DNA of 64,000 nt from Bacteroidales bacterium. Its GTDB lineage: Bacteria; Bacteroidota; Bacteroidia; Bacteroidales; UBA12077. Location of the stretch: the NCBI GenBank assembly GCA_019038645.1, contig JAHOYT010000051.1, positions 1-64,000 on the forward strand, written 5' to 3'. The notes beneath the pieces are model-generated. The model was not told where the DNA came from, made no database searches, and was given only the letters and a program-made list of their open reading frames with translations. The translations under genes were made by a program, and so were the position numbers. Positions 49,556 through 63,493 of this stretch are shown piece after piece (position 1 is the first letter of the stretch; every line of letters begins with the position of its first letter).

Positions 49556-51772
49556 ATGAAAAAGCTAATTATTGTAATAACGGTATTGTTTTTCTGTTTT
49601 TCTGCCAGTTCGCAGGAACGCCGTCTGGCACTTATTATCGGTAATGGTAATTATACATCGAGTACTCTTTCCAATCCCGAAAATGATGCAAAATCTATGG
49701 AAAAGTCACTTAAAGCACTCGGGTTTAAAGTGATCAGACATGAAAATCTGACACAAAGTAAATTGACCGAAGCCATTGATAATTTTGGGAATAAATTGAA
49801 ATACTACGATGTTGGTCTGTTCTTTTATGCGGGACATGGTATTCAGGCTAAAGGTTTTAATTATTTAATTCCTGTGGATGCCGTTTTAAAGGCAGAATCA
49901 GATGTAGAATACAGTTGTGTTAGAGCCGACAGAATTTTTGGAAAAATGGAAGAAGCTCAGAATAAAATGAATATTGTTATTCTGGATGCATGCCGTGATA
50001 ACCCGTTTGAAAGAAGCTGGACAAGAGCAGCAAGAGGACGTGGTTTAACATTTATGGATGCTCCTAGTGGATCAATAATTGCTTATGCAACAGCACCTGG
50101 AAAAACTGCTTCTGACGGATACGGGGAAAACAGTCCGTACACTTCTGCCCTGATTCAATGTATGGAAATTCCAAACATTAAAATTGAGGATTTTTTTAAA
50201 AAGGTAAGAGCACAAGTTCGGGAACAAACAAAAGATCAACAAACTCCCTGGGAATCAACTTCTCTCGAAGGAGATTTCTATTTCTATGTTGATGCAGAAC
50301 ATGCATTACAGGAAACTCAACATACAGATGCTACTCAGCTTGTTGATAACAGTGTTAAGGAACTTAAAAGAAATGCAGCTCCTGAAATTAAGTCTTTGGC
50401 TATTTTGCCTTTCGCCAATTATAGTGGTGATGAAACTCAGGCGTATCTTGCTTTAGGAATGCAAGATGCATTAATAAGTGAAATTGGCCAATTAGGAACA
50501 ATAAGAGTCATATCAAAAACATCTACATTTAGTTATACAAATACGTCGAAAACGATACAGGAAATTGCATACGAATTAGATGTTGATGCTATTATGGAAG
50601 CTTCAATAATGACAATACAAGACAATATAAGGCTTCACCTTAAACTTTACAATGCTTATCCCGAAGAAAAGCAAATATGGTCTCAAACCTTTGATTCTGA
50701 CATGAGTAATATCTTTAATCTTTACAACGATGTTATAAAAACCGTTGCAAATGAAATTCAGATATCACTTTCACCAGAGCAACAAAATCAACTTGAAAAA
50801 ACAAGACAGATTAATCCTGATGCATATCAAGCCTATCTTAAAGGAAAATCTCACTTGTTTTCCTTAACACGAGAAAGTTTGGAAGCAGCCCTGGACTATT
50901 TTCAGAAAGCAGTAAAAATTGATCCGGAATATGCCCCGGCCTATGGTGGCATGGCAGGTGTTTGGGGAGTTTTAAAGCAAATGGATTATGTTTCACCTGA
51001 TGAAGCAAATCCAAAAATGAAAGAATATATGTCAAAAGCTATTGAACTTGATAGTGAAAATGCAGATGTATATTTTTATGATGCCGTGGTGAAAGTTTGG
51101 ACTGACTTTGACTGGGTAGGAGCAGAAAAATCATTTAAGAAATGCCTTGAGATTAATCCAAACTATTCAGAAGCATGGGCTTATTATTCACATTTCTTAA
51201 TGTGTATGAAAAGACCTGATGAAATGAGAGAAACAATGAAACGTGCTTTGGAAATCGATCCCTATAATTATCTAATTCAAATACTTGCAGGTGTGGAACT
51301 TACGATAGGGTCAGAATATGATTTAAGCATAAACGAAATGAGCCAACTGCAAACAATAATGCCAAATAATCCATTAATCATGGTCATACTTTTTCAATGT
51401 TACGCAGAAACAGGCAAGTATGACCTGGCTATCAACGAACTGAAGAAAATACTCAATCAGGTAGCGGATGAAACGGTAATTAAAACATTAGATAAAGAAT
51501 ATAGCAAAGCGGGTTTCAAAAAAGCTTTGAATGCAACAGCAGATGTTTTGGTGGAGCGTTCAAGTTTTGTCTCAGCTCAACATATGGCCACGCTATATGG
51601 GTACGCTGGAAACACAGATAAAATGCTGATTTGGTTAGAAAAAATGTATATCAGAGGAGATCCTGATTTACCATATATCGGAGTAATGCCCTTATTCAGA
51701 CCATACCAGGATGAACCGCGGTACATTGAAATAGTGCAACGAATGAATTTGCCGCTCGGAAAATTTGAATAA
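49556..51772 (+). CDS. Secreted caspase-like protein with FlgO-like and TPR domains
   Basis: A 738-residue exported protein. A signal peptide (KKLIIVITVLFFCFSASSQ) precedes a C14 caspase domain (residues ~22-245) with the catalytic His94 (FFYAGHGIQ) and Cys146 (ILDACRDNPF), both present. Residues ~277-400 form a FlgO/TolB-like domain (SLAILPFANYSGDETQAYLA, LGMQDALISEIG), usually found in receptor cyclases and CadC-like regulators. A TPR array fills ~420-700. Caspase plus TPR is known from bacteria, but this order with the FlgO-like middle is less common. It is a single gene with terminators on both sides. The substrate is unknown. Confidence 0.88.
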   Translation: MKKLIIVITVLFFCFSASSQERRLALIIGNGNYTSSTLSNPENDAKSMEKSLKALGFKVIRHENLTQSKLTEAIDNFGNKLKYYDVGLFFYAGHGIQAKGFNYLIPVDAVLKAESDVEYSCVRADRIFGKMEEAQNKMNIVILDACRDNPFERSWTRAARGRGLTFMDAPSGSIIAYATAPGKTASDGYGENSPYTSALIQCMEIPNIKIEDFFKKVRAQVREQTKDQQTPWESTSLEGDFYFYVDAEHALQETQHTDATQLVDNSVKELKRNAAPEIKSLAILPFANYSGDETQAYLALGMQDALISEIGQLGTIRVISKTSTFSYTNTSKTIQEIAYELDVDAIMEASIMTIQDNIRLHLKLYNAYPEEKQIWSQTFDSDMSNIFNLYNDVIKTVANEIQISLSPEQQNQLEKTRQINPDAYQAYLKGKSHLFSLTRESLEAALDYFQKAVKIDPEYAPAYGGMAGVWGVLKQMDYVSPDEANPKMKEYMSKAIELDSENADVYFYDAVVKVWTDFDWVGAEKSFKKCLEINPNYSEAWAYYSHFLMCMKRPDEMRETMKRALEIDPYNYLIQILAGVELTIGSEYDLSINEMSQLQTIMPNNPLIMVILFQCYAETGKYDLAINELKKILNQVADETVIKTLDKEYSKAGFKKALNATADVLVERSSFVSAQHMATLYGYAGNTDKMLIWLEKMYIRGDPDLPYIGVMPLFRPYQDEPRYIEIVQRMNLPLGKFE

Positions 51773-52383: not shown

Positions 52384-53649
52384 TTATTCTATATCTGAAG
52401 CCAGTCTTATTCCTGTAAACTGCCAGCGTTTATCAGGCTGAAAGAAATTTCTGTAGGATGTTCTGAAATGATTACTTGAAGTTGCACAGGAACCCCCACG
52501 TAAAACCATCTGGTTAATCATAAATTTACCGTTATATTCGCCTAATGCTCCTTTCGCTTGTTTATATCCCGGATAAGGTAAATAAGCACTATTGGTCCAC
52601 TCCCACACATCCCCGATAAGTTGGTAAGAACTTTCTTTTCGCGCTAAAGGATGAAATAAATTATTGCCCTGAAAATTTGCCAGATTGTAATCCAGATCAG
52701 TCGCATATTTATTTACTGCAACTTCCCACTCAAATTCAGTTAGCAATCTCATTTGTTTCCATCTGGCAAAAGCTTCGGCTTCGTAAAAACTTACATGAGT
52801 AACCGGGATATCGGGGTTCATTTTTTGTAAACCATTGGTTAAAGTGTATTCATAAAATTTATCGTCGATTAAATGCCAGTATAAAGGTGATTTAACGCCG
52901 TTTGCGTTTAACCAGCCCCAACCATCCGCCGACCAGAATTCGAAGCGCTCATAGCCTTTATCTTTAATAAAACCTATATAATCACTGTTGGTTACAAGCA
53001 TATCAGAGAACTTAACTCCGTTCAGGTAAACTTTATGTTTCTTCTCTTCGTTATCAAAGTGAAAATCATCACCATCATATCCAACTTCAAATATTCCTTC
53101 ATTTACTTTAAGAAAATCAGGTTCAACCAATTTGGCTAATTTGTCAAGAGATTTATCGTATTTAAGCTTGTAAGTAGGAAATAAAAGATTATGCCCAAGT
53201 ATATATTTAATATCAGTAATTAATAATTCCTGATGTTGTTGCTCATGATTTAATCCTAATTCAATTAAATCCAGTATTTTATCATCAACTTTTTCAGCCA
53301 GAAAGATTTCTACATTTTCATCAATGATTTCCCGGTAATGCAGTACTTCTTCTACTGTGGGACGGGTTAAATTACCTCTATCAACACGTATAATTCTTTC
53401 ACCAAGGCTTTCATAGTAACTATTAAAAATATAATTATACTTTTTATTATAAAACCGATATTTATCAATATTTGATTCAAGAATTAATACTTCGAAAAAC
53501 CATGTTGTATGTCCTAAATGCCATTTCGGAGGGCTAACATCTTCAATAGGCTGCACAACATAATCTTCAATTTTTAAAGGATTGCAAATCTCTACTGTTC
53601 TGTCTCTTACTTCCTTATATTTGTTTAATAAGTTTTCTTGTCTCTCCAT
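52384..53649 (-). CDS. EgtB-like sulfoxide synthase family protein
   Basis: A 421-residue protein with an N-terminal DinB-like helical bundle (residues ~1-150) and a C-terminal formylglycine-generating-enzyme/lectin-like domain (~170-421, GDVWEWTNSAYLPYPGY, MVLRGGSCATSSNHFRTSYR). The iron ligands of EgtB are present: His47 (WHLGHTTWF) and His135/His139 (NHEQQHQELL). EgtB makes the C-S bond of ergothioneine from trimethyl-histidine. The histidine methyltransferase EgtD is usually next door but is absent from this window, so ergothioneine, ovothiol-type or selenoneine chemistry are all open. It is a single gene. Confidence 0.88.
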   Translation of the reverse strand: MERQENLLNKYKEVRDRTVEICNPLKIEDYVVQPIEDVSPPKWHLGHTTWFFEVLILESNIDKYRFYNKKYNYIFNSYYESLGERIIRVDRGNLTRPTVEEVLHYREIIDENVEIFLAEKVDDKILDLIELGLNHEQQHQELLITDIKYILGHNLLFPTYKLKYDKSLDKLAKLVEPDFLKVNEGIFEVGYDGDDFHFDNEEKKHKVYLNGVKFSDMLVTNSDYIGFIKDKGYERFEFWSADGWGWLNANGVKSPLYWHLIDDKFYEYTLTNGLQKMNPDIPVTHVSFYEAEAFARWKQMRLLTEFEWEVAVNKYATDLDYNLANFQGNNLFHPLARKESSYQLIGDVWEWTNSAYLPYPGYKQAKGALGEYNGKFMINQMVLRGGSCATSSNHFRTSYRNFFQPDKRWQFTGIRLASDIE

Positions 53650-53748: not shown

Positions 53749-55794
53749 ATGAAAAAAAGTTTCCTAATTATCTTATCTTTTGTTGTGTTGGTTTTTACAC
53801 AATGTACGAATAACGATCAGGTTGCCGATCAAAAAAACATCAATGATCAGGCAATTGAAAAAACTCAAAACGCACTGATCGAAAAATTTGGCTCTGAAAA
53901 TGAAGAGTTAATTAATCGCGGCGTTGCACATGTAGCATCTTTATGGAGAGCATCTGACGGGTCTTTAGAAGATTTCGAAAGTTTTTGTACCGGTAATTTT
54001 ATTTCTGATGCGGCAGAAAAAGAAGTGGTTTTTAATAAAATTTCTAAAAATTTTGAATCATTGTGGGGTCATGGAAATAAAATAGTATTGGATTTAAATG
54101 AAAATATGCATCTTAACAATGGCCCTTATCACAGTATTGATGCCATGTTTGCTGCATATAGTCCGGGCTCACATTTTGCCGACGATTTTTATTCCAATAA
54201 AATTGCTTTTGTAATAGCATTAAACTTCCCTCCTTATTCTTTAGATGAGAAAAATGAAATTGGTAAAAAATGGAATTCACTGGAATGGGCTTATGCCAGA
54301 TTAGGTGATGTTTTTACAGCCCGCGTACCAGCAGAATTATCGCAGAAAATTGGAAACGCAAGCACAGGTTCCGATATATATATATCTGAGTATAATATTT
54401 TTATGGGTCATCTATTAAATAATGACAATGAAAAGTTATTTCCGGAAGATATGGTATTGTTATCGCACTGGAACTTACGTGATGAAATTAAATCAAATTA
54501 TGCTAACACGGAAAACGGACCAGAGAAGCAGGATATGATTTATACGGTAATGAAACATATTATTAACCAGACAATTCCTGAGGAAGTTATCAATTCTGGT
54601 GATTATGACTGGAATCCACTGGAAAATAAGGTGTATAAAGATGAAAACGAAGTTCAGTTAACAGCAGAACCTGATTCACGATATCAGGAGATTTTGAATA
54701 ATTTTCATGCAAGAAAAGCTACAGATAAATATCATTCAGAATATAATACGTTTGTAAAAAGAGCATTTTCAGGTTCAAAAGAAATTCCACAGGAAGAAGT
54801 GGAAAATTTATTCGATGAATATTTATCTTCGCCGGTTGTTAAGCAGGTTGGTGAACTAATTAAGAAACGCCTTGGAAGAGATTTAAGACCGTATGACATT
54901 TGGTACGATGGTTTTAAAGCAAGAAGCTCAATATCAGAAGAAACCCTTAATGAAATTACCCGAAATAAATATCCTGACGAAAAAGCATTAGAGGCCGATT
55001 TAGGAAATATATTGAAGAAACTGGGCTGGGAAAAGGAACGAGCAGAGTTTCTGGCATCTAAAGTAGAAGTCGATGCTGCACGTGGCTCAGGACATGCATG
55101 GGGAGCACAAATGAAAGCTGAAAACGCTCATTTACGTACTAGAGTTTCAGGTAAAGGCATGGATTACAAAGGATATAATATAGCTGTTCACGAATTCGGA
55201 CATAACGTAGAACAAACAATTTCTTTACATGATGTTGATTATTATTTGATTAATGGAGTACCGAATACTGCTTTTACAGAAGCTTTAGCTTTTATTTTCC
55301 AGAAAAGAGACCTTATGTTATTAGGTTTTAGCAATGATAATCCTGATAAAGAAAGTCTTGAAACACTTGATTTGTACTGGTCGGTTTTTGAAATAATGGG
55401 AGTTTCAATGGTTGATATGAAAGTTTGGAAATGGTTATATGCGAATCCGGAAGCTACTGCTTCTCAGTTAAAAGAAGCAACTATCGGAATAGCTAATGAG
55501 GTATGGAATAAATACTATGCAGAGGTTTACGGAACAAGCGACGAACCTATTCTTGCTGTTTATTCACACATGATAAATGCTCCATTATATCTTGCTAATT
55601 ATTCTTTTGGTCATTTGATTGATTTTCAAATCGAGCAATATCTTGTTGGAAAAGATTTTTCAACAGAGGTTGACAGAATCTGGAGTATAGGACAAGTAAC
55701 ACCTCAGGTATGGATGCAGGAAGCAGTTGGTGAAAATATTTCTATTAAACCTATGATTGAAGCTGCTGAAGAAGCTTTAAAACACATAAATTAA
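53749..55794 (+). CDS. Lipoprotein zinc metallopeptidase (HExxH, gluzincin-like)
   Basis: A 681-residue lipoprotein (lipobox FTQC near residue 19) with a zinc peptidase core: H481-E-F-G-H485 (AVHEFGHNVEQT) and a third ligand E511 in TAFTEALAFIF. The rest is mostly helical, with Trp/Tyr-rich segments, in the style of M2/M3/M32-type peptidases, but I cannot place it in one of these. It is expected on the outer side of the envelope. It is followed by a strong terminator. The gene is alone, divergent from the EgtB-like gene. Confidence 0.8.
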   Translation: MKKSFLIILSFVVLVFTQCTNNDQVADQKNINDQAIEKTQNALIEKFGSENEELINRGVAHVASLWRASDGSLEDFESFCTGNFISDAAEKEVVFNKISKNFESLWGHGNKIVLDLNENMHLNNGPYHSIDAMFAAYSPGSHFADDFYSNKIAFVIALNFPPYSLDEKNEIGKKWNSLEWAYARLGDVFTARVPAELSQKIGNASTGSDIYISEYNIFMGHLLNNDNEKLFPEDMVLLSHWNLRDEIKSNYANTENGPEKQDMIYTVMKHIINQTIPEEVINSGDYDWNPLENKVYKDENEVQLTAEPDSRYQEILNNFHARKATDKYHSEYNTFVKRAFSGSKEIPQEEVENLFDEYLSSPVVKQVGELIKKRLGRDLRPYDIWYDGFKARSSISEETLNEITRNKYPDEKALEADLGNILKKLGWEKERAEFLASKVEVDAARGSGHAWGAQMKAENAHLRTRVSGKGMDYKGYNIAVHEFGHNVEQTISLHDVDYYLINGVPNTAFTEALAFIFQKRDLMLLGFSNDNPDKESLETLDLYWSVFEIMGVSMVDMKVWKWLYANPEATASQLKEATIGIANEVWNKYYAEVYGTSDEPILAVYSHMINAPLYLANYSFGHLIDFQIEQYLVGKDFSTEVDRIWSIGQVTPQVWMQEAVGENISIKPMIEAAEEALKHIN

Positions 55795-55817
55795 TTGAAA
55801 TTCAATAAACTATATAG

Positions 55818-55845
55818 GGCCGGCAATAAATGCCGGCCTTTTTTT
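55818..55845 (+). terminator. Terminator of the HExxH peptidase gene
   Basis: GGCCGGCA/TGCCGGCC with loop ATAAA and seven Ts. Confidence 0.95.
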
Positions 55846-55947: not shown

Positions 55948-58374
55948 ATGAGCGCAAAATTTTCCTTATATGCAAAATTTGGGATGATACCCAAAACTTC
56001 TGTTTTAGAAGAAAAAGAGAATGAACTAAAGCAAGAGTTTGAAGATTTCACTACTTACTCTGAATCAGAGGAATTAGCCAGATATAAAGAGCTTGATGCT
56101 TTTGTTACTTCAAAAGAATTTGAGGATATAAAGAAAGATATAAATGCCAAAAAGTATCCGGGCTCGGAACCTTTCGGGAAAGAAAAAAAGTATAAAGAGC
56201 AGAAAAAATCGAAAAGGGTTAAAACCTACTATCAGGTAAAAGATGCGCAGGAATTAAAAGATTACGAATCGTTTAAAGATTCTGAAAAACTTGCCGGTTA
56301 TCAGGAACTTGATCAATTTTTTACATCTCCTGAATTTGATGAATTTAAGAAATCAATAATTCAACAAAAAGAAGAAAAGACAAAAGGAATAAAAGAGAAA
56401 CAAACAAAATATAAGGAATTAAAGAAAAAGTACAAATGGTTTTTTGCATTAAAAGGATCAAAGCAACTTGCTGATTATAATAGCTTTGATGGTTCACAAG
56501 AACTACGAGACTTTATTGATCTTGAAAAGGAAATAGCAGCTATTGATTTTGATGCTTTAAAAAATGAAATAGAAAATCAGAAAAAAGAGAAAATTGATGA
56601 GTTAAATTCAATAATTATCAGGCATAAGGAATTAAAAGCACAATATTCTAAGTATAAAAAAGCTGAAGACTTTCCGGAAAAAGAAGAATTAGATGAAATT
56701 ACCATAAAAATTAAATCAGGTGAGCATAAAAGAGCTATTAAAGGTTTTAAAATTGTAAATTTAGATGAATATAAGAAACTTAAAAAATATGAAAGCCTTA
56801 AGAAATCTTCAATAATTAAAAAGTATTTAAATACTGAGAATAATAGTGGCATTTCACCTGATATTCAAAATAAGATTTCTTCATTTTTAGAGCTTGAGAA
56901 ATACATAGAATCATTGGATTTTGATGAAATTAAAAATACTCTTGAATTACAAAAAAAGGAGAAGGAAGAAGAATATAATAACTTATTGTCAAGACTTAAG
57001 GAATTAAAAATAATAAAAGAAGATGTTAAAAAAGGTGTTGGATTTCCTGAAAATGATAAAATAGAAGAGTTAGAGGCTGCAATTAAATCCGGTGAGCATA
57101 AAAAAGCAATAAAAGAGCTCAAAGCAGAGAACCTTGATGAATTTAAAAAACAAAAAGAATTTGAGAAACTAAAAAGATCATCAAAAATAAAAAACTATTT
57201 CAAATTTAAAGATTCAGATAAATACAAAGAATATCTTCAACTGGATGGTTCAGAGGAAATTGATTCTTTTACAAACCTGGAAAATGAAGTTAATTCAGCA
57301 GAATTCAAAACACATATTGAAGAAGTAAAAAATCTGAAATTTGAAAATACTGAAGAATTTAAAAAGCAGAAGGAATATAAAGCGTTAAAAAAATCTGCAG
57401 AAATTAAACAATATTTTAAGTTCAAGGAATCTGAAAAACTGGCAATTTATACTGAATTGAATGAATCGCAGGAAATTACAGATTATGAAGAACTGGAAGC
57501 TTATATTAATTCCGAAGAATTTAAGGAAGAAAAGAAATACCTGCTAACTAAAGATAAATTTAAGTTATCTGAAGAGTTTAAACAGGAAGATGAGTTCAAA
57601 GAGCTTAACAAATCAGAAAAGATAAAATGGTACCTTAAATTAGAGAAGAAAAACGATTTTGAAAAGTTAAGTGAATGGGAACTTACGTTTGAAGATAACT
57701 TCGATGCAAATAATTTAGATACTGAGAAATGGATGAGTGGCTATTATTGGGGTAAAAATCTTCTAAAAGATGATTATGTTCAGGTAAATGAAAAACAATT
57801 TATCAAGGATGCTAATTTGGAGATAAATAACAGTAATCTGGTAATTGTTACTAAACAGGAAAAGGCTGAGGGAAAAGTTTGGGATCCTTCAATGGGTTTT
57901 TATGCGAAAGAATTTGATTATACTTCAGGATTAGTTAATACCGGTCAGTTTTTCAGGCAGCAATACGGATTATTTAAGGCCAAAATTAAGGTAAGTCACT
58001 CCTATCCTGTTCATCATGCATTCTGGCTGTTAGGTGAGAAAATAACGCCTGAAATTGACATTTTTAAGTATGGAAAAAAGTCACCTTCAAAACTTGAGGT
58101 TGCAAATTACTGGAATGGCGATGGAAATGTTAAAAAGAAGAAGAAAACACTTGGTGGATTAAATTTTTCTAAAGACTATTATATTTATTCCTTAGAGTGG
58201 ACTGAAAATAAACTTATCTGGAAAATAAATGATGTAGTTTTATTTGAGCAAACAGAAGGAATACCGCAAGAACCCATGTACATAGTACTAAGTTCAGGGA
58301 TAAGTCAGGAAGGAAGTCCTTCGGCACAGGGAAATATGGAGATTGACTGGGTTAGATCTTACAGGAAAGGTTAG
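55948..58374 (+). CDS. Repeat-rich protein with a C-terminal GH16-like domain lacking the catalytic Glu
   Basis: An 808-residue protein in two parts and without a signal peptide. Residues 1-570 are highly charged and helical, built from at least five copies of a ~40-residue motif, SEKLA.Y.EL..S.E...Y..LE.Y..S.EF, at about 38-65, 108-136, 168-210, 418-458 and 491-531. Two further near-identical blocks contain IKSGEHK.AIK. Residues ~577-808 are a concanavalin-A-like GH16 fold (LTFEDNFDANNLDTEKWMSG, TSGLVNTG, YGLFKAKIKV, YYIYSLEWTENKLIWKINDV, NMEIDWVRSY). The GH16 active site is E-x-D-x-(x)-E; here E702-I-D704-I-F706-K707, so the acid/base Glu is missing. It probably binds a glucan or other ligand instead of cutting it. 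Its end is 3 bp from the convergent STN-domain gene. A near -7 box (TATCTTTA, ~55912) precedes it. Confidence 0.85.
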   Translation: MSAKFSLYAKFGMIPKTSVLEEKENELKQEFEDFTTYSESEELARYKELDAFVTSKEFEDIKKDINAKKYPGSEPFGKEKKYKEQKKSKRVKTYYQVKDAQELKDYESFKDSEKLAGYQELDQFFTSPEFDEFKKSIIQQKEEKTKGIKEKQTKYKELKKKYKWFFALKGSKQLADYNSFDGSQELRDFIDLEKEIAAIDFDALKNEIENQKKEKIDELNSIIIRHKELKAQYSKYKKAEDFPEKEELDEITIKIKSGEHKRAIKGFKIVNLDEYKKLKKYESLKKSSIIKKYLNTENNSGISPDIQNKISSFLELEKYIESLDFDEIKNTLELQKKEKEEEYNNLLSRLKELKIIKEDVKKGVGFPENDKIEELEAAIKSGEHKKAIKELKAENLDEFKKQKEFEKLKRSSKIKNYFKFKDSDKYKEYLQLDGSEEIDSFTNLENEVNSAEFKTHIEEVKNLKFENTEEFKKQKEYKALKKSAEIKQYFKFKESEKLAIYTELNESQEITDYEELEAYINSEEFKEEKKYLLTKDKFKLSEEFKQEDEFKELNKSEKIKWYLKLEKKNDFEKLSEWELTFEDNFDANNLDTEKWMSGYYWGKNLLKDDYVQVNEKQFIKDANLEINNSNLVIVTKQEKAEGKVWDPSMGFYAKEFDYTSGLVNTGQFFRQQYGLFKAKIKVSHSYPVHHAFWLLGEKITPEIDIFKYGKKSPSKLEVANYWNGDGNVKKKKKTLGGLNFSKDYYIYSLEWTENKLIWKINDVVLFEQTEGIPQEPMYIVLSSGISQEGSPSAQGNMEIDWVRSYRKG

Positions 58375-58377
58375 TAA

Positions 58378-59946
58378 TTACTCTTTTTCTTCTTTTGCAT
58401 TATCGAGTTTTTGCTGAATTCTTATTAAAGCTTCTTCCATTGTTTCATCTGGAATTATATAATTATATTCACCCCAGAACTGTTGATCATAATTGTAGTT
58501 TTCATCAATAAAAACTTTTTTGGGAGAAATAGTTTCAATTCTTTTAAATCTTTTTACATCCGTTGTGTCGATATTGTTTGCAGCAAATTCAAAAACTGTT
58601 TTAAAATCAGTTGAAAAGAGCTTTCCAGTGAATTTTACTTTAAATTCTAATTCCCCTCTGGCCAGATATATAAAATATTTATTATTTATTTCTCTGTAAT
58701 TTATTAAATAACTTGCAGAAATTGCTTTAACCCTTGTTCTGAAAGATCTCTGTACAATTAGATTTTGACCCGCGTGTTTTAATCCATCGGGTGTAAGATT
58801 AAACTCAATAGCTACAATTGCCAAATCATCGGTATCAATATAAATACTGCCTTCAAAGAGGTTATTCTCGATATAATACTTAGGTTCAAAGCTTATTACA
58901 TAAGCTGAACTATTATTATAATTTACAATTTCATTTAATTTATATTTAAAATATTTAAAATGTTCTTTGATTAAAAAATTTGAAGGGTTTTTAATTAAAT
59001 CAAGATACAGGCTTGCAGACATTCCTCCCTGTAGTTTAAGAGAAACAGTATCATCTCTTGTATAATACTTATTTTTTCGACTTTTAACTAGCTTTATCTG
59101 ATCCGAAAAAAGACCTGAATACGGGCTTTTATAAACATCAATTACTGCTTCAGTTATGGAAGCAAGTTCATCATTGTCTTTTACAATTTCCCTGTAAAAT
59201 GAGGTGATATAGTACGGATCAGTATAATAATTATCTTTAATCTTATTTAATGCTTGTTGTAGAATTTTTTCTGCATTGCTGCCTCTAATAACTATTTCCT
59301 GAATCTTAAACGGATCCTCTTTTAAATAAATTATATTTTTTCCCGTAGAAAGCTGTCTAACAGGTATTAAAGCATTCTTGTAACCAATATACGACACAAC
59401 AAGGGTGTCTGTCAGGTTATTAAATGGTAATTTTAGATTAAACCTGCCCTGCTCATTCGAGATAGTTCCAATGCTCTTCCCTAAAAGAGAGACATTTGCG
59501 AAAGGAAGAGCCTTTTTACCTATAAAATCTATAATTGTTCCTTCAATCTTCAATGTATTGAAACTTTCAGGAGTTTTATAATAGGATAATAATTGATTAA
59601 ATGAGTTATTTTTGCATATAACAATTTGTTTATCAACTACTTTATATATTAGAGTAGAGTCGTTTAACACCTCATTTAATAAATCTCTTAATGAAATGTT
59701 TTCAATATTGATTTTTATCTGATTGCTTGTTTCAATTAAATCTGAATTATATGAAAATTCATAACCTGCAATTTTCCCAATTTCAAGTAATGCTTTGGAC
59801 AGATCAATGTTTCTCGCCTTATAAGATATTATATTGTCTAAAGCAGATGTGTCTTGTGAAAATGAATTAACAGAATAAAAAACAAGAAGCACAATTACTC
59901 CTGTCGTAATCATGCTTCTTGTAATATTTTTTAAGTAGCTAATCAT
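58378..59946 (-). CDS. STN and carboxypeptidase-regulatory-like domain protein (no TonB barrel)
   Basis: A 522-residue exported protein. After a signal peptide (residues ~1-31) comes an STN (secretin/TonB N-terminal) domain (~45-115: NIDLSKALLEIGKIAGYEFS, ISLRDLLNEVL) and a carboxypeptidase-regulatory-like domain (~132-210: GTIIDFIGKKALPFANVSLL, GTISNEQGRFNL). The remaining ~310 residues are beta-rich and may be a small outer-membrane or periplasmic domain, but the TonB plug and 22-strand barrel of a SusC receptor are absent. In FecR-type signalling the STN domain contacts the anti-sigma factor. It lies 43 bp downstream of fecR, last in a sigma-FecR-STN operon. Confidence 0.87.
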   Translation of the reverse strand: MISYLKNITRSMITTGVIVLLVFYSVNSFSQDTSALDNIISYKARNIDLSKALLEIGKIAGYEFSYNSDLIETSNQIKINIENISLRDLLNEVLNDSTLIYKVVDKQIVICKNNSFNQLLSYYKTPESFNTLKIEGTIIDFIGKKALPFANVSLLGKSIGTISNEQGRFNLKLPFNNLTDTLVVSYIGYKNALIPVRQLSTGKNIIYLKEDPFKIQEIVIRGSNAEKILQQALNKIKDNYYTDPYYITSFYREIVKDNDELASITEAVIDVYKSPYSGLFSDQIKLVKSRKNKYYTRDDTVSLKLQGGMSASLYLDLIKNPSNFLIKEHFKYFKYKLNEIVNYNNSSAYVISFEPKYYIENNLFEGSIYIDTDDLAIVAIEFNLTPDGLKHAGQNLIVQRSFRTRVKAISASYLINYREINNKYFIYLARGELEFKVKFTGKLFSTDFKTVFEFAANNIDTTDVKRFKRIETISPKKVFIDENYNYDQQFWGEYNYIIPDETMEEALIRIQQKLDNAKEEKE

Positions 59947-59989
59947 ATAATTTCTGTATATTAAACGTAAAATACAGATTTATTTTAAA

Positions 59990-61018
59990 TTAACTACCGT
60001 ATTTTATCAAATAAATCTTATCATCCTCATATTTTATTTTTAAATCAAAAGTTACGCAAATCACATTTAGTACTGAATCAATTTCCTGATTTCTAAATGT
60101 TGAAGTATATTTTAAATTTAATATTTGTTGATTATCACAGATGATACTTGTCTTATAAACTGTATTTAAAATATGAATTACATCAATCATTTTATCTTCG
60201 CGGAATATGATCTCATGGGTTTTCCATGCAATAATATTTTCATTCTGATTAATCGATTTTTCGAAGCCTGTTTTTGATAATATGCCGACATTGCCAGGAT
60301 TTATCAGAATTTTTTCATCGCCATTCTTTTTTCTGGATAACTGAACCAACCCGGTTTCAACAAAAACTTCTACTGTGTTTTCCGTCAAATTCGTATTTAC
60401 ATTAAAAGATGTTCCTAATACTCTGATTTCCGCATTTTCTGTTTCAATTATAAATGGATTTTCAGGATTTTTGGTAACATCAAAGAACCCTTCTCCCGTT
60501 AATTTTACTTTTCTTTGGTTGCCGGTAAACTCATCGGGATATTCTAACTTACTATTACTATTAAGGTGTACAATAGAACCATCAGGTAAAACTATTTCTT
60601 TATTTACCTCATTTAGTGCGGTTAGTTCAGTTACTGAATAATACGAATTATTTAAATTCCTATAAACCTTTGTTGAAAAGAATCCAATACTAATCAAAAT
60701 TATTATTGCTGCAGCATATTTAAGTACTGCAGAAAAATGCAATGTCCTTAATGCTTCCTTCTCTACGGCTGGAATCTTTTGCTCATCCTCCTGTATTCTG
60801 CCCTTTAATTTTTCCCAGGCTGAATCTACATTTACTTTATTCATTGATTTATTTAAATTAATAATTTCCAGATCTTGTTTTGTCTGATTAAATAATAGTT
60901 TATTCTCATTGCTTGCATTTAGCCATTTAAATAATTTATCTGTTTCTTCCTGACTGCATTCATCGGAAAAATATTTTGCAATCAAGTCCCAATTTTCAGT
61001 GTTATCATTTGTTTTCAT
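59990..61018 (-). CDS. FecR-family anti-sigma factor
   Basis: A 342-residue inner-membrane protein. The N-terminal cytoplasmic region (residues ~1-85, WDLIAKYFSDECSQEETDKL) binds the sigma factor. One membrane helix follows (~90-110, AVLKYAAAIIILISIGFFS), then the periplasmic FecR domain (~125-230: EIVLPDGSIVHLNSNSKLEY, GEGFFDVTKNPENPFIIETE, EIRVLGTSFNVNT) and the usual C-terminal extension (~270-342, FREDKMIDVIHILNTVYKTS). It sits 19 bp downstream of the sigma gene and upstream of the STN gene. It should hold the sigma factor inactive until signalled. Confidence 0.95.
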   Translation of the reverse strand: MKTNDNTENWDLIAKYFSDECSQEETDKLFKWLNASNENKLLFNQTKQDLEIINLNKSMNKVNVDSAWEKLKGRIQEDEQKIPAVEKEALRTLHFSAVLKYAAAIIILISIGFFSTKVYRNLNNSYYSVTELTALNEVNKEIVLPDGSIVHLNSNSKLEYPDEFTGNQRKVKLTGEGFFDVTKNPENPFIIETENAEIRVLGTSFNVNTNLTENTVEVFVETGLVQLSRKKNGDEKILINPGNVGILSKTGFEKSINQNENIIAWKTHEIIFREDKMIDVIHILNTVYKTSIICDNQQILNLKYTSTFRNQEIDSVLNVICVTFDLKIKYEDDKIYLIKYGS

Positions 61019-61037
61019 AACTTTCCCTTCAAATTAT

Positions 61038-61589
61038 TTAAACAGCATCTGCATATTCTTTCAGATTTGCTCTGAAGTGTTTTAAAGCCTTCCCCATATT
61101 TGCTTCAACAGTTTTTATTGATATTGATAATTTATCGGCAATTTCATGGTATTTAAGGCCCTCGTATCTACTCATTTTAAAAATCTCCCGGCATCGCTCA
61201 GGCAGCGAATTCAGTGTTGTATTGATTACACCTGACAGTTCTTTCGCATTCAGTTCATCTGCAGGACTAATACTTTCATTTACAGAATGAGATTTATAAT
61301 AGTTTTCATATTTAATATCCAAAGAACGTTTTCGTAATTCCTGTAAACAATTATTCCTTATAGCAGTATATAAATACGCCTTTAGTGATGTTGTAATATT
61401 TAAAGTGCTTTTGTTTTTCCAGATATTATAAAAAGTGTCCTGAACAACTTCTTCGGATTGCTCCATGTTTTTAACATACACCATTGCAAACCGACATAAC
61501 TTTTCATAATAATCCTTAAAAAGAACCTCAAATTCCTTTATATCACCCTCTTTAATTTTTTTTAAAATCTTTTTCTCAGAAGGAATCAT
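61038..61589 (-). CDS. ECF-type RNA polymerase sigma factor
   Basis: A 183-residue sigma-70 of the extracytoplasmic-function group. Region 2 (residues ~20-90: FKDYYEKLCRFAMVYVKNME, EVVQDTFYNIWKNK) binds core and the -10 element. Region 4 (~120-175: LNSLPERCREIFKMSRYEGL, KYHEIADKLSISIKTVEANM) carries the helix-turn-helix for the -35. It heads the operon sigma-FecR-STN protein, the common Bacteroidota unit for envelope-to-gene signalling. Normally it drives a SusC/D-type locus; none is in this window, so its target genes are elsewhere or it drives its own operon. Confidence 0.96.
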   Translation of the reverse strand: MIPSEKKILKKIKEGDIKEFEVLFKDYYEKLCRFAMVYVKNMEQSEEVVQDTFYNIWKNKSTLNITTSLKAYLYTAIRNNCLQELRKRSLDIKYENYYKSHSVNESISPADELNAKELSGVINTTLNSLPERCREIFKMSRYEGLKYHEIADKLSISIKTVEANMGKALKHFRANLKEYADAV

Positions 61590-62026: not shown

Positions 62027-63493
62027 ATGTACGATTTTTATAATAAATATATAGCTAAATCAAATTACATACTCACAACCGTCATTTTTTTAATTTTAAG
62101 TACCTTAATCAATCCCGAAGCTAAAAGTCAACCAATTGACAGTTCCATTATCTGGTTCACTCCTAACGTTGGCAGTGTTGATATGTTAGAACTGTTTAAC
62201 CAGCCTGAGCAATGGACCACTGCCAGATCGAAGATAGATGTATTCAAGTTTTATACAGGACAAGTAGGAACCTTTGGTTGGAGTTGCACTGTAAACCAAA
62301 GCTCCAACTGCGGTGAGAATTATCTCGAAAACCTGGTGGATGTCCAGGCATTTTCCAATTTGGGACAGTGGGGTATTGATATTGCTGTCGAGTCCTTTTT
62401 TGCGGAACCTGTCATGTCTTATGATCCCATGGAATGCTCAACCGCCGAATACGTGTTAAACCTTACTCTTGATGGATCAATCAATGTAATTGAAAATATT
62501 GAAACAAACGGCGGAATTGTTAGTTATCTGGCTATGGATGAACCTATCAGGCGATGGTTTCCAGAATTCTACTATATCTATACAGGCCAGACAGACCCTA
62601 GACCTTGTCTTGTTGATTCAATTGGTGGTCTGGCAGATCATGTTGCCGCATACATTTTACAAATGCAATCATGGTTTCCTTCTATTTCCATCGGACATAT
62701 TGAGCTCTATCCTGAAGTTGGTGTTGATCAGCTCAAAGAATGGATTATTGCCCTTGAGGCAAGAGGAGTTTCTCTTTCATTCTTACATTTAGATGTTCAT
62801 GGTCCACGGGTTGACCATTATATCTCATTAGGAATAGAAATCGATGTTGTATCCGATCTTCGGGAATTGAAATCATTTTTTAATGCACATGATATAGATT
62901 TTGGTATTATTTTCTTCGATACTTATTATGATAGTCAGTTTTGGGAACCCGGTGAATATAATGATAGTACATATTACGCCGGAACAATGAACTGGGTTAA
63001 CTTTTTTCGTGATGCAAATCTGAAGCCGGACCACAGCATTTTCCAAAGTTGGGTATTCCCATACTACACCACGGGAATTGGACCCAATGAGATTCCTGTC
63101 AATTTACCTGAAGATGATCTCTCCACATATAGTCATACAAGATTAATAAATGAGGGATACAAAATCCTTAATTCAATTCCTGTGGATTTGCAAGACCCAC
63201 CAAATAATTTAACAGAAAAATTTGTGCTTCATCAGAACTATTCCAACCCTTTTGCAAACCAGACTACTATTTCATTTTGGGTAGGTTATCCTGCACATAT
63301 ACAGGTTGATATATACAATATATATGGGCAGCATGTGATTAAACTAATTGATGAAAATATGATATCCGGTAAGCATCAGATTAATTGGGATGGAAAGAAT
63401 TCCCAGGGTCAAACTGTACCAGCAGGTATCTATTTGTATCGAATGTATGCAGGCGGAAAGGTCTTTACAAAGTATATGATTTTTTTGCATTAA
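62027..63493 (+). CDS. T9SS-secreted protein with a C-terminal sorting domain
   Basis: A 488-residue exported protein. The signal peptide is near residues 10-34 (SNYILTTVIFLILSTLINPE). The C-terminal ~85 residues are the type IX sorting domain: LHQNYSNPFANQTTISFWV, VDIYNIYGQHVIKLIDEN and the ending WDGKNSQGQTVPAGIYLYRM then KVFTKYMIFL. Cargo with this tail is exported across the outer membrane and anchored or released. The middle (~40-395) may be a TIM-barrel-like enzyme (KFYTGQVGTFGWSC; SYLAMDEPIRRWFPEFYY; LELKSF; FFDTYYDSQFW) but I cannot name it. Its composition looks a little less AT-rich than neighbouring genes. It is a single gene. Confidence 0.88.
   Translation: MYDFYNKYIAKSNYILTTVIFLILSTLINPEAKSQPIDSSIIWFTPNVGSVDMLELFNQPEQWTTARSKIDVFKFYTGQVGTFGWSCTVNQSSNCGENYLENLVDVQAFSNLGQWGIDIAVESFFAEPVMSYDPMECSTAEYVLNLTLDGSINVIENIETNGGIVSYLAMDEPIRRWFPEFYYIYTGQTDPRPCLVDSIGGLADHVAAYILQMQSWFPSISIGHIELYPEVGVDQLKEWIIALEARGVSLSFLHLDVHGPRVDHYISLGIEIDVVSDLRELKSFFNAHDIDFGIIFFDTYYDSQFWEPGEYNDSTYYAGTMNWVNFFRDANLKPDHSIFQSWVFPYYTTGIGPNEIPVNLPEDDLSTYSHTRLINEGYKILNSIPVDLQDPPNNLTEKFVLHQNYSNPFANQTTISFWVGYPAHIQVDIYNIYGQHVIKLIDENMISGKHQINWDGKNSQGQTVPAGIYLYRMYAGGKVFTKYMIFLH

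Follow-up and report, generated by a model that had tools for sequence, protein, structure and literature searches.

A GH16-fold protein with a broken catalytic triad on an apparently new helical repeat: a candidate intracellular adaptor family of the Bacteroidales

What does a glycanase fold do in a protein that has neither the catalytic residues of the glycanases nor a signal for export? The question is raised by one gene in a 64,000-nucleotide stretch of DNA from a Bacteroidales bacterium (contig JAHOYT010000051.1 of assembly GCA_019038645.1, positions 1 to 64,000; hereafter the window). An earlier note, made from the sequence alone, had described the gene product as lacking a signal peptide, as consisting largely of charged repeats of about 40 residues that it did not recognise, and as ending in a GH16-like domain with a damaged active-site motif, for which it proposed a non-catalytic role. 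Translation of the window gives the following reading frame:

55948..58374 (+): whole gene, repeat stalk plus predicted dead GH16 domain, 808 residues; single locus in its own genome, with orthologues in 22 of the 25 sampled genomes of the family

Since an in-frame stop lies within about one codon 5' of the ATG, no upstream extension can supply a signal peptide, and in a simple hydropathy scan no part of the N-terminus reached the hydrophobicity of a signal peptide or membrane helix, in line with the earlier note. By the same scan, the family members are likewise without signal peptide or membrane span; signal-peptide-like or lipoprotein-like N-termini are found in most ordinary GH16 proteins of Bacteroidales. 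The protein is therefore probably located inside the cell. Its codon adaptation ranks 32nd among 113 genes, which does not indicate high abundance. An AlphaFold2 model built from 12 family sequences (mean pLDDT 81.8) divides the protein into a helical region (residues 1-576) and a beta domain (residues 577-808), the latter with three features of interest:

57676..58371 (+): GH16-fold domain, residues 577-808, predicted to be catalytically dead; PF00722; AlphaFold2 pLDDT mostly above 85 except in the loop 603-606; Z 27 to laminarinases
58051..58068 (+): broken catalytic motif E702-I-D704-I-F-K707, the active form being E-x-D-x-x-E
57865..57900 (+): family-specific insert G-K-x-W-x-P-x-x-G-F, residues 640-651, a gap in most active relatives

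PF00722 matches residues 637-802 with an E-value of 1.9e-17 (63.7 bits against a curated cut-off of 22). It is the sole Pfam match in the window protein, NCBIfam giving only sub-threshold beta-glucanase models, and it also matches 17 of 17 diverse family members. Structure prediction of this domain, proposed in the earlier note as a check, returned a laminarinase fold: in a fold search with the model, the beta domain aligned to 4crq_A and 6jhj with Z 27.0 and an rmsd of 1.7 Å over 206 residues. The motif itself reads as had been reported, and its breakage extends to the entire family. The Glu-Asp-Glu triad at 702/704/707 is intact in 0 of 93 aligned members vs 56 of 56 comparison GH16 enzymes, 29 of them from Bacteroidales. 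Position 707 is Lys in 56 and Arg in 14 of the 93, while position 702 is occupied by Glu in 34, His in 32 and Gln in 19. In each of the four members with Glu at 707, position 702 is not Glu or position 704 is not Asp. E702 and D704 are kept in nearly all members of the window protein's own genus; the nucleophile Glu is lost in most members overall. One apparent triad in a repeat protein, the string EFDELE of L170, lies off the aligned catalytic site and was rejected. Across the order, repeat-bearing proteins never keep the triad and triad-bearing proteins never have the repeats, and intermediates combining repeats with an intact triad were absent among 94 members. It is thus strongly supported by the alignments that the GH16 head is non-catalytic, and classical GH16 hydrolysis would be impossible for it.

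These 94 relatives were all from Bacteroidales, and those with names come from metagenome-assembled Bacteroidales or Marinilabiliales genomes. They range from 279 to 900 residues, some being truncated by contig ends (93 GH16 domains could be aligned), and carry 0-9 repeat units. Of 295 genomes sampled from the order, 76 carry the gene, i.e. about one in four, and it occurs in 52 of 183 genera; with the repeat profile alone, 69 of the 295 were found. Applied to a sample of 345 genomes of the phylum, this profile matched the own genome only. GH16 proteins outside the order, in a sample of the class, align over the GH16 part only; among those inspected, 27 keep E-x-D-(x)-x-E, and their N-termini are mostly signal-peptide-like. 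A branch supported at 100/100 separates 64 members from the rest of an IQ-TREE tree. Because no member has the triad, the order is cleanly split and the members form one clade with 100/100 support, the catalytic loss would most simply have happened once, early, and then been kept.

Both halves of the protein are under strong purifying selection. Between close relatives, dN/dS is 0.07-0.15 for the repeats and 0.05-0.09 for the GH16 half, as given where dS could be estimated (it was saturated in two pairs), and internal stops were absent from every family match. A local mutation as the cause of the triad loss is ruled out by the distribution, the selection, the clade and the 93 of 93 broken triads. 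The gene is also not a spare or recently degenerated copy of a local enzyme, since it is single copy and the own genome has no further GH16 gene. That a catalytic residue has been lost would, taken by itself, suit a decaying pseudogene of an ordinary laminarinase; yet 94 open relatives, dN/dS values of 0.05-0.15, one old clade and the missing internal stops refute this reading, to which we give practically no weight. The non-catalytic role suggested in the earlier note is hence borne out by a monophyletic, order-wide family, which we infer to be an old family of pseudoenzymes under new constraint and not a local lesion.

Where this constraint acts can be read from the residues that the family has fixed. 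All 93 of 93 members share W645 and G650, both within the insert, and R670 and Q671 are each present in 81 of 93. Most members have replaced three residues that are conserved in the active relatives: Trp at 689 (in 51 of 56), His at 721 (in 55 of 56) and Asn at 782 (in 45 of 56). The invariance of W645 and G650 points to a new, selected role for the domain. A cleft remodelled for another use would be expected to show just such new invariants together with the loss of W689, H721 and N782, which argues against decay as well as against an unchanged glucan lectin.

The other part of the protein is made up of Lys/Glu-rich repeats that span ∼540 residues. The repeats claimed in the earlier note are real, although the unit is larger than it had proposed: iterated profile searches collected 259 units from 64 members, each of 67 positions and spaced by ∼72 residues. 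In the window protein, eight units fall within residues 30-564:

56035..56235 (+): repeat unit 1, residues 30-96; E 1.1e-20, 58 bits with the outside-genus profile
56251..56445 (+): repeat unit 2, residues 102-166; repeat profiles
56464..56640 (+): repeat unit 3, residues 173-231, divergent, long-helix form; profiles, model with a long helix 201-238
56641..56829 (+): repeat unit 4, residues 232-294, divergent; repeat profiles
56860..57033 (+): repeat unit 5, residues 305-362, divergent; profiles; present in L002, absent from most of the rest of the genus
57049..57204 (+): repeat unit 6, residues 368-419; repeat profiles
57220..57420 (+): repeat unit 7, residues 425-491; E 3.4e-23, repeat profiles
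57436..57639 (+): repeat unit 8, residues 497-564, adjoining the GH16 domain; repeat profiles

A profile trained only on 155 units from genomes outside the genus likewise picked out eight units in residues 30-564 of the window protein, with 274 bits against residues 1-571, and gave zero matches in 1000 shuffled sequences. The repeat profile correlates with itself at lag 33 (autocorrelation 0.29, the 99.9% level of the shuffles being 0.28), so two similar helix-turn-helix halves of ∼33 residues probably make up the 67-residue unit in tandem. Within the unit, S11, L20, S26, F29, L56 and Y65 are strongly conserved, while position 44 is often Ser/Thr and position 59 often Ser; an array of short helices capped by the Ser/Thr of positions 11, 26, 44 and 59 would fit this pattern. 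For L037, a regular member with five units, the model shows an all-helical repeat domain with a pLDDT of 89, its helices being mostly of 9-15 residues, plus some longer ones. Units 5-6 look like a duplicate of units 3-4, and across members the copy number varies from 0 to 9 on the same GH16 head.

As the earlier note had it, the repeat belongs to no family that could be recognised, and the match to a known family by which the note would have been refuted did not turn up. Pfam and NCBIfam gave chance-level matches only on the repeats of the window protein and 17 further members, with no profile match to the known helical repeats in Pfam (TPR, HAT, Sel1, spectrin, DUF349 and others). PHROGs and PADLOC gave no match, and a phmmer search of the repeats against PDB sequences returned nothing significant. 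At the level of fold, the L037 repeats had no PDB match at E <= 1e-3 and no confident match in a library of viral models. The best PDB fold match, the Rad50 coiled coil (VIA Z 8.8 at 8.7 Å), scores too low to be meaningful where helical models are compared. A predicted cellular relative of the fold may exist outside the PDB and the viral library searched. In the searched genomes, the repeats are confined to this gene, and the repeat looks new and is a candidate for a new Pfam family.

A third conserved element precedes the repeats:

55948..56010 (+): N-terminal conserved segment, residues 1-21; a short hydrophobic/cationic stretch, then [FL]-G-x-[ILFV]-P-x-T-x-x-[ILY]-E

Among the 94 members, the G of this motif is conserved in 80%, the P in 81%, the T in 80% and the E in 97%. 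The first 16 residues mostly carry a net charge of +1 to +5, the helical moment of the segment is moderate, and its pLDDT is below 50 in a second AlphaFold2 model. Residues 1-21 are a possible docking or membrane-binding motif.

The surroundings of the gene were compared with those of its relatives. Upstream, it is set apart from its neighbour by a terminator:

55816..55840 (+): intrinsic terminator of the upstream gene, a 10-pair stem followed by a T run, separating the gene from its upstream neighbour

Given this strong terminator and a convergent downstream gene that ends 3 bases away, the gene is probably transcribed alone; a promoter scan gave nothing above chance. In 46 loci, neighbours were conserved within families only and no partner was common to all. 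In the window protein's own family, the gene comes after a putative metallopeptidase and before a FecR/ECF block; in other families fmt is downstream, and in yet others the gene comes after a two-component pair and before lepA. Because the neighbours differ between families, the context names no pathway. In one family (L104, L106, L116), a glycogen branching enzyme and amylase-like genes adjoin the gene on the opposite strand; glycogen genes (branching enzyme) adjoin it in three loci only, and a glycogen link was rejected as chance. Two short members of 324-326 residues and about one unit (L131 7578-8549, L132 7238-8215) lie beside rnc, a two-component pair and lepA, at the site that multi-repeat members occupy in other families, which implies that repeats are gained or lost at one locus.

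Several neighbours in the window deserve a description of their own. The putative zinc metallopeptidase at 53749-55794 (+), with an HEFGH motif and a lipoprotein-like N-terminus, adjoins the gene or is near it in most loci of the genus; searches against Pfam, NCBIfam and PDB sequences gave none above threshold. The block at 58378-61589 (-) comprises an ECF sigma factor and a FecR-like anti-sigma protein, both named by reading their sequences, and a 522-residue protein that combines STN and carboxypeptidase-regulatory-like domains and lacks a full TonB-dependent receptor. It is conserved in the genus, and in a sister genus it adjoins the gene. Farther away are a fusion of a caspase-like peptidase (PF00656) with TPR repeats that has a signal-peptide-like N-terminus (49556-51772, +), the ergothioneine biosynthesis protein EgtB, above its curated cut-off (52384-53649, -), and a secreted protein with a type IX secretion sorting domain and no assigned function (62027-63493, +).

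Relatives of known function help to delimit what this family may be. GH16 laminarinases (ZgLamC, TmLam) and kappa-carrageenases share its beta-sandwich fold (Z 25-27, ∼23% identity), yet they are secreted and have E-x-D-x-x-E, whereas in the Bacteroidales family the triad is broken throughout and the 640-651 insert brings its own invariant residues. The yeast SKN1/KRE6/Sbg1 family (PF03935) matches 3 of 17 scanned members weakly (best E 1.8e-5), as expected for a related fold; Pfam describes these as beta-glucan synthesis-associated proteins, but such a pathway is not evident around the Bacteroidales gene. The closest known kind are the beta-1,3-glucan recognition (beta-GRP/GNBP) proteins of insects, whose GH16-like domain is without the catalytic glutamates and which exist beside active paralogues (PMC6403176). 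Common to both is a catalytically dead GH16 domain (here by loss of the acid/base Glu). However, the insect proteins belong to animal immunity, have no helical repeat stalk and are credited with glucan binding, whereas the Bacteroidales proteins have the stalk and lack an export signal. On sequence grounds, the family belongs to the GH16 fold, not to the GH16 enzymes.

Somewhat beyond an even chance, we favour a non-enzymatic intracellular scaffold or adaptor, in which a dead GH16 binding head sits on a helical stalk of variable length. A GH16 glycanase ancestor would have lost its signal peptide and the catalytic acid/base, gained N-terminal helical repeats and been kept in Bacteroidales. The conserved hydrophobic/cationic N-terminal motif may serve for docking, perhaps on the inside of the membrane, while the 67-residue units, predicted to be helical, would build up an extended and highly charged stalk, with reach or valency perhaps set by their copy number. 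The beta-sandwich, its acid/base Glu mostly turned into Lys/Arg and its cleft remodelled, would putatively bind a ligand or a partner protein but leave it uncut. A scaffold of this kind is in keeping with helical repeats that vary in number. More speculative, and rather unlikely in this specific form, is a lineage-specific cytoskeleton-like or membrane-organising element, with tunable stalks docked by the N-terminal motif and the repurposed glycanase head binding protein or glycan within the cell.

Among the other readings, the head could still be a lectin that binds a beta-linked polysaccharide uncut, e.g. an intracellular or membrane-proximal exopolysaccharide intermediate, a possibility that we take seriously but doubt. 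It would account for the retained fold and for E702 and D704 in nearly all of the own genus, and dead GH16 proteins that bind glucan do exist in insects (PMC6403176). Against it, position 702 is His or Gln in 51 of 93 members, and polysaccharide synthesis genes do not consistently adjoin the gene in the 46 loci. Besides, we know of no intracellular beta-glucan in these bacteria. Glucan binding by the head is partly disfavoured, because W689, H721 and N782 are replaced in most members too and an export signal is lacking. The protein might instead leave the cell by the T6SS or another route that needs no signal peptide and act outside, and both the extracellular action of the GH16 ancestor and a conserved N-terminal motif without assigned purpose could be cited in favour; yet secretion genes do not consistently adjoin the gene in the 46 loci, a T9SS sorting domain is absent from the Pfam and NCBIfam scans of the window protein, and we regard export as improbable. 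An enzyme of changed chemistry, in which Lys/Arg or His would act at the former catalytic positions, seems to us very improbable: 75% of members have Lys/Arg at 707, and 702 is mostly Glu, His or Gln, i.e. polar or charged and not random, but positions 702/704/707 vary freely together in ∼30 combinations, including Val, Ile, Met and Leu, unlike a conserved active site, and the invariant W645 and G650 are elsewhere.

In summary, what seems to be new here is an order-wide, single-copy bacterial family with a predicted dead GH16 domain on a repeat stalk and without an export signal, dead GH16 proteins having been known from animal immunity; we found no earlier description of such a bacterial family in open-licence papers. 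Automatic annotation would name the gene a glycosyl hydrolase, and it is likely miscounted as a carbohydrate-degrading enzyme in Bacteroidales genomes. With the pairing of the repeat and a dead GH16 domain, one could test cleanly how an enzyme made for export may turn into an intracellular binding protein.
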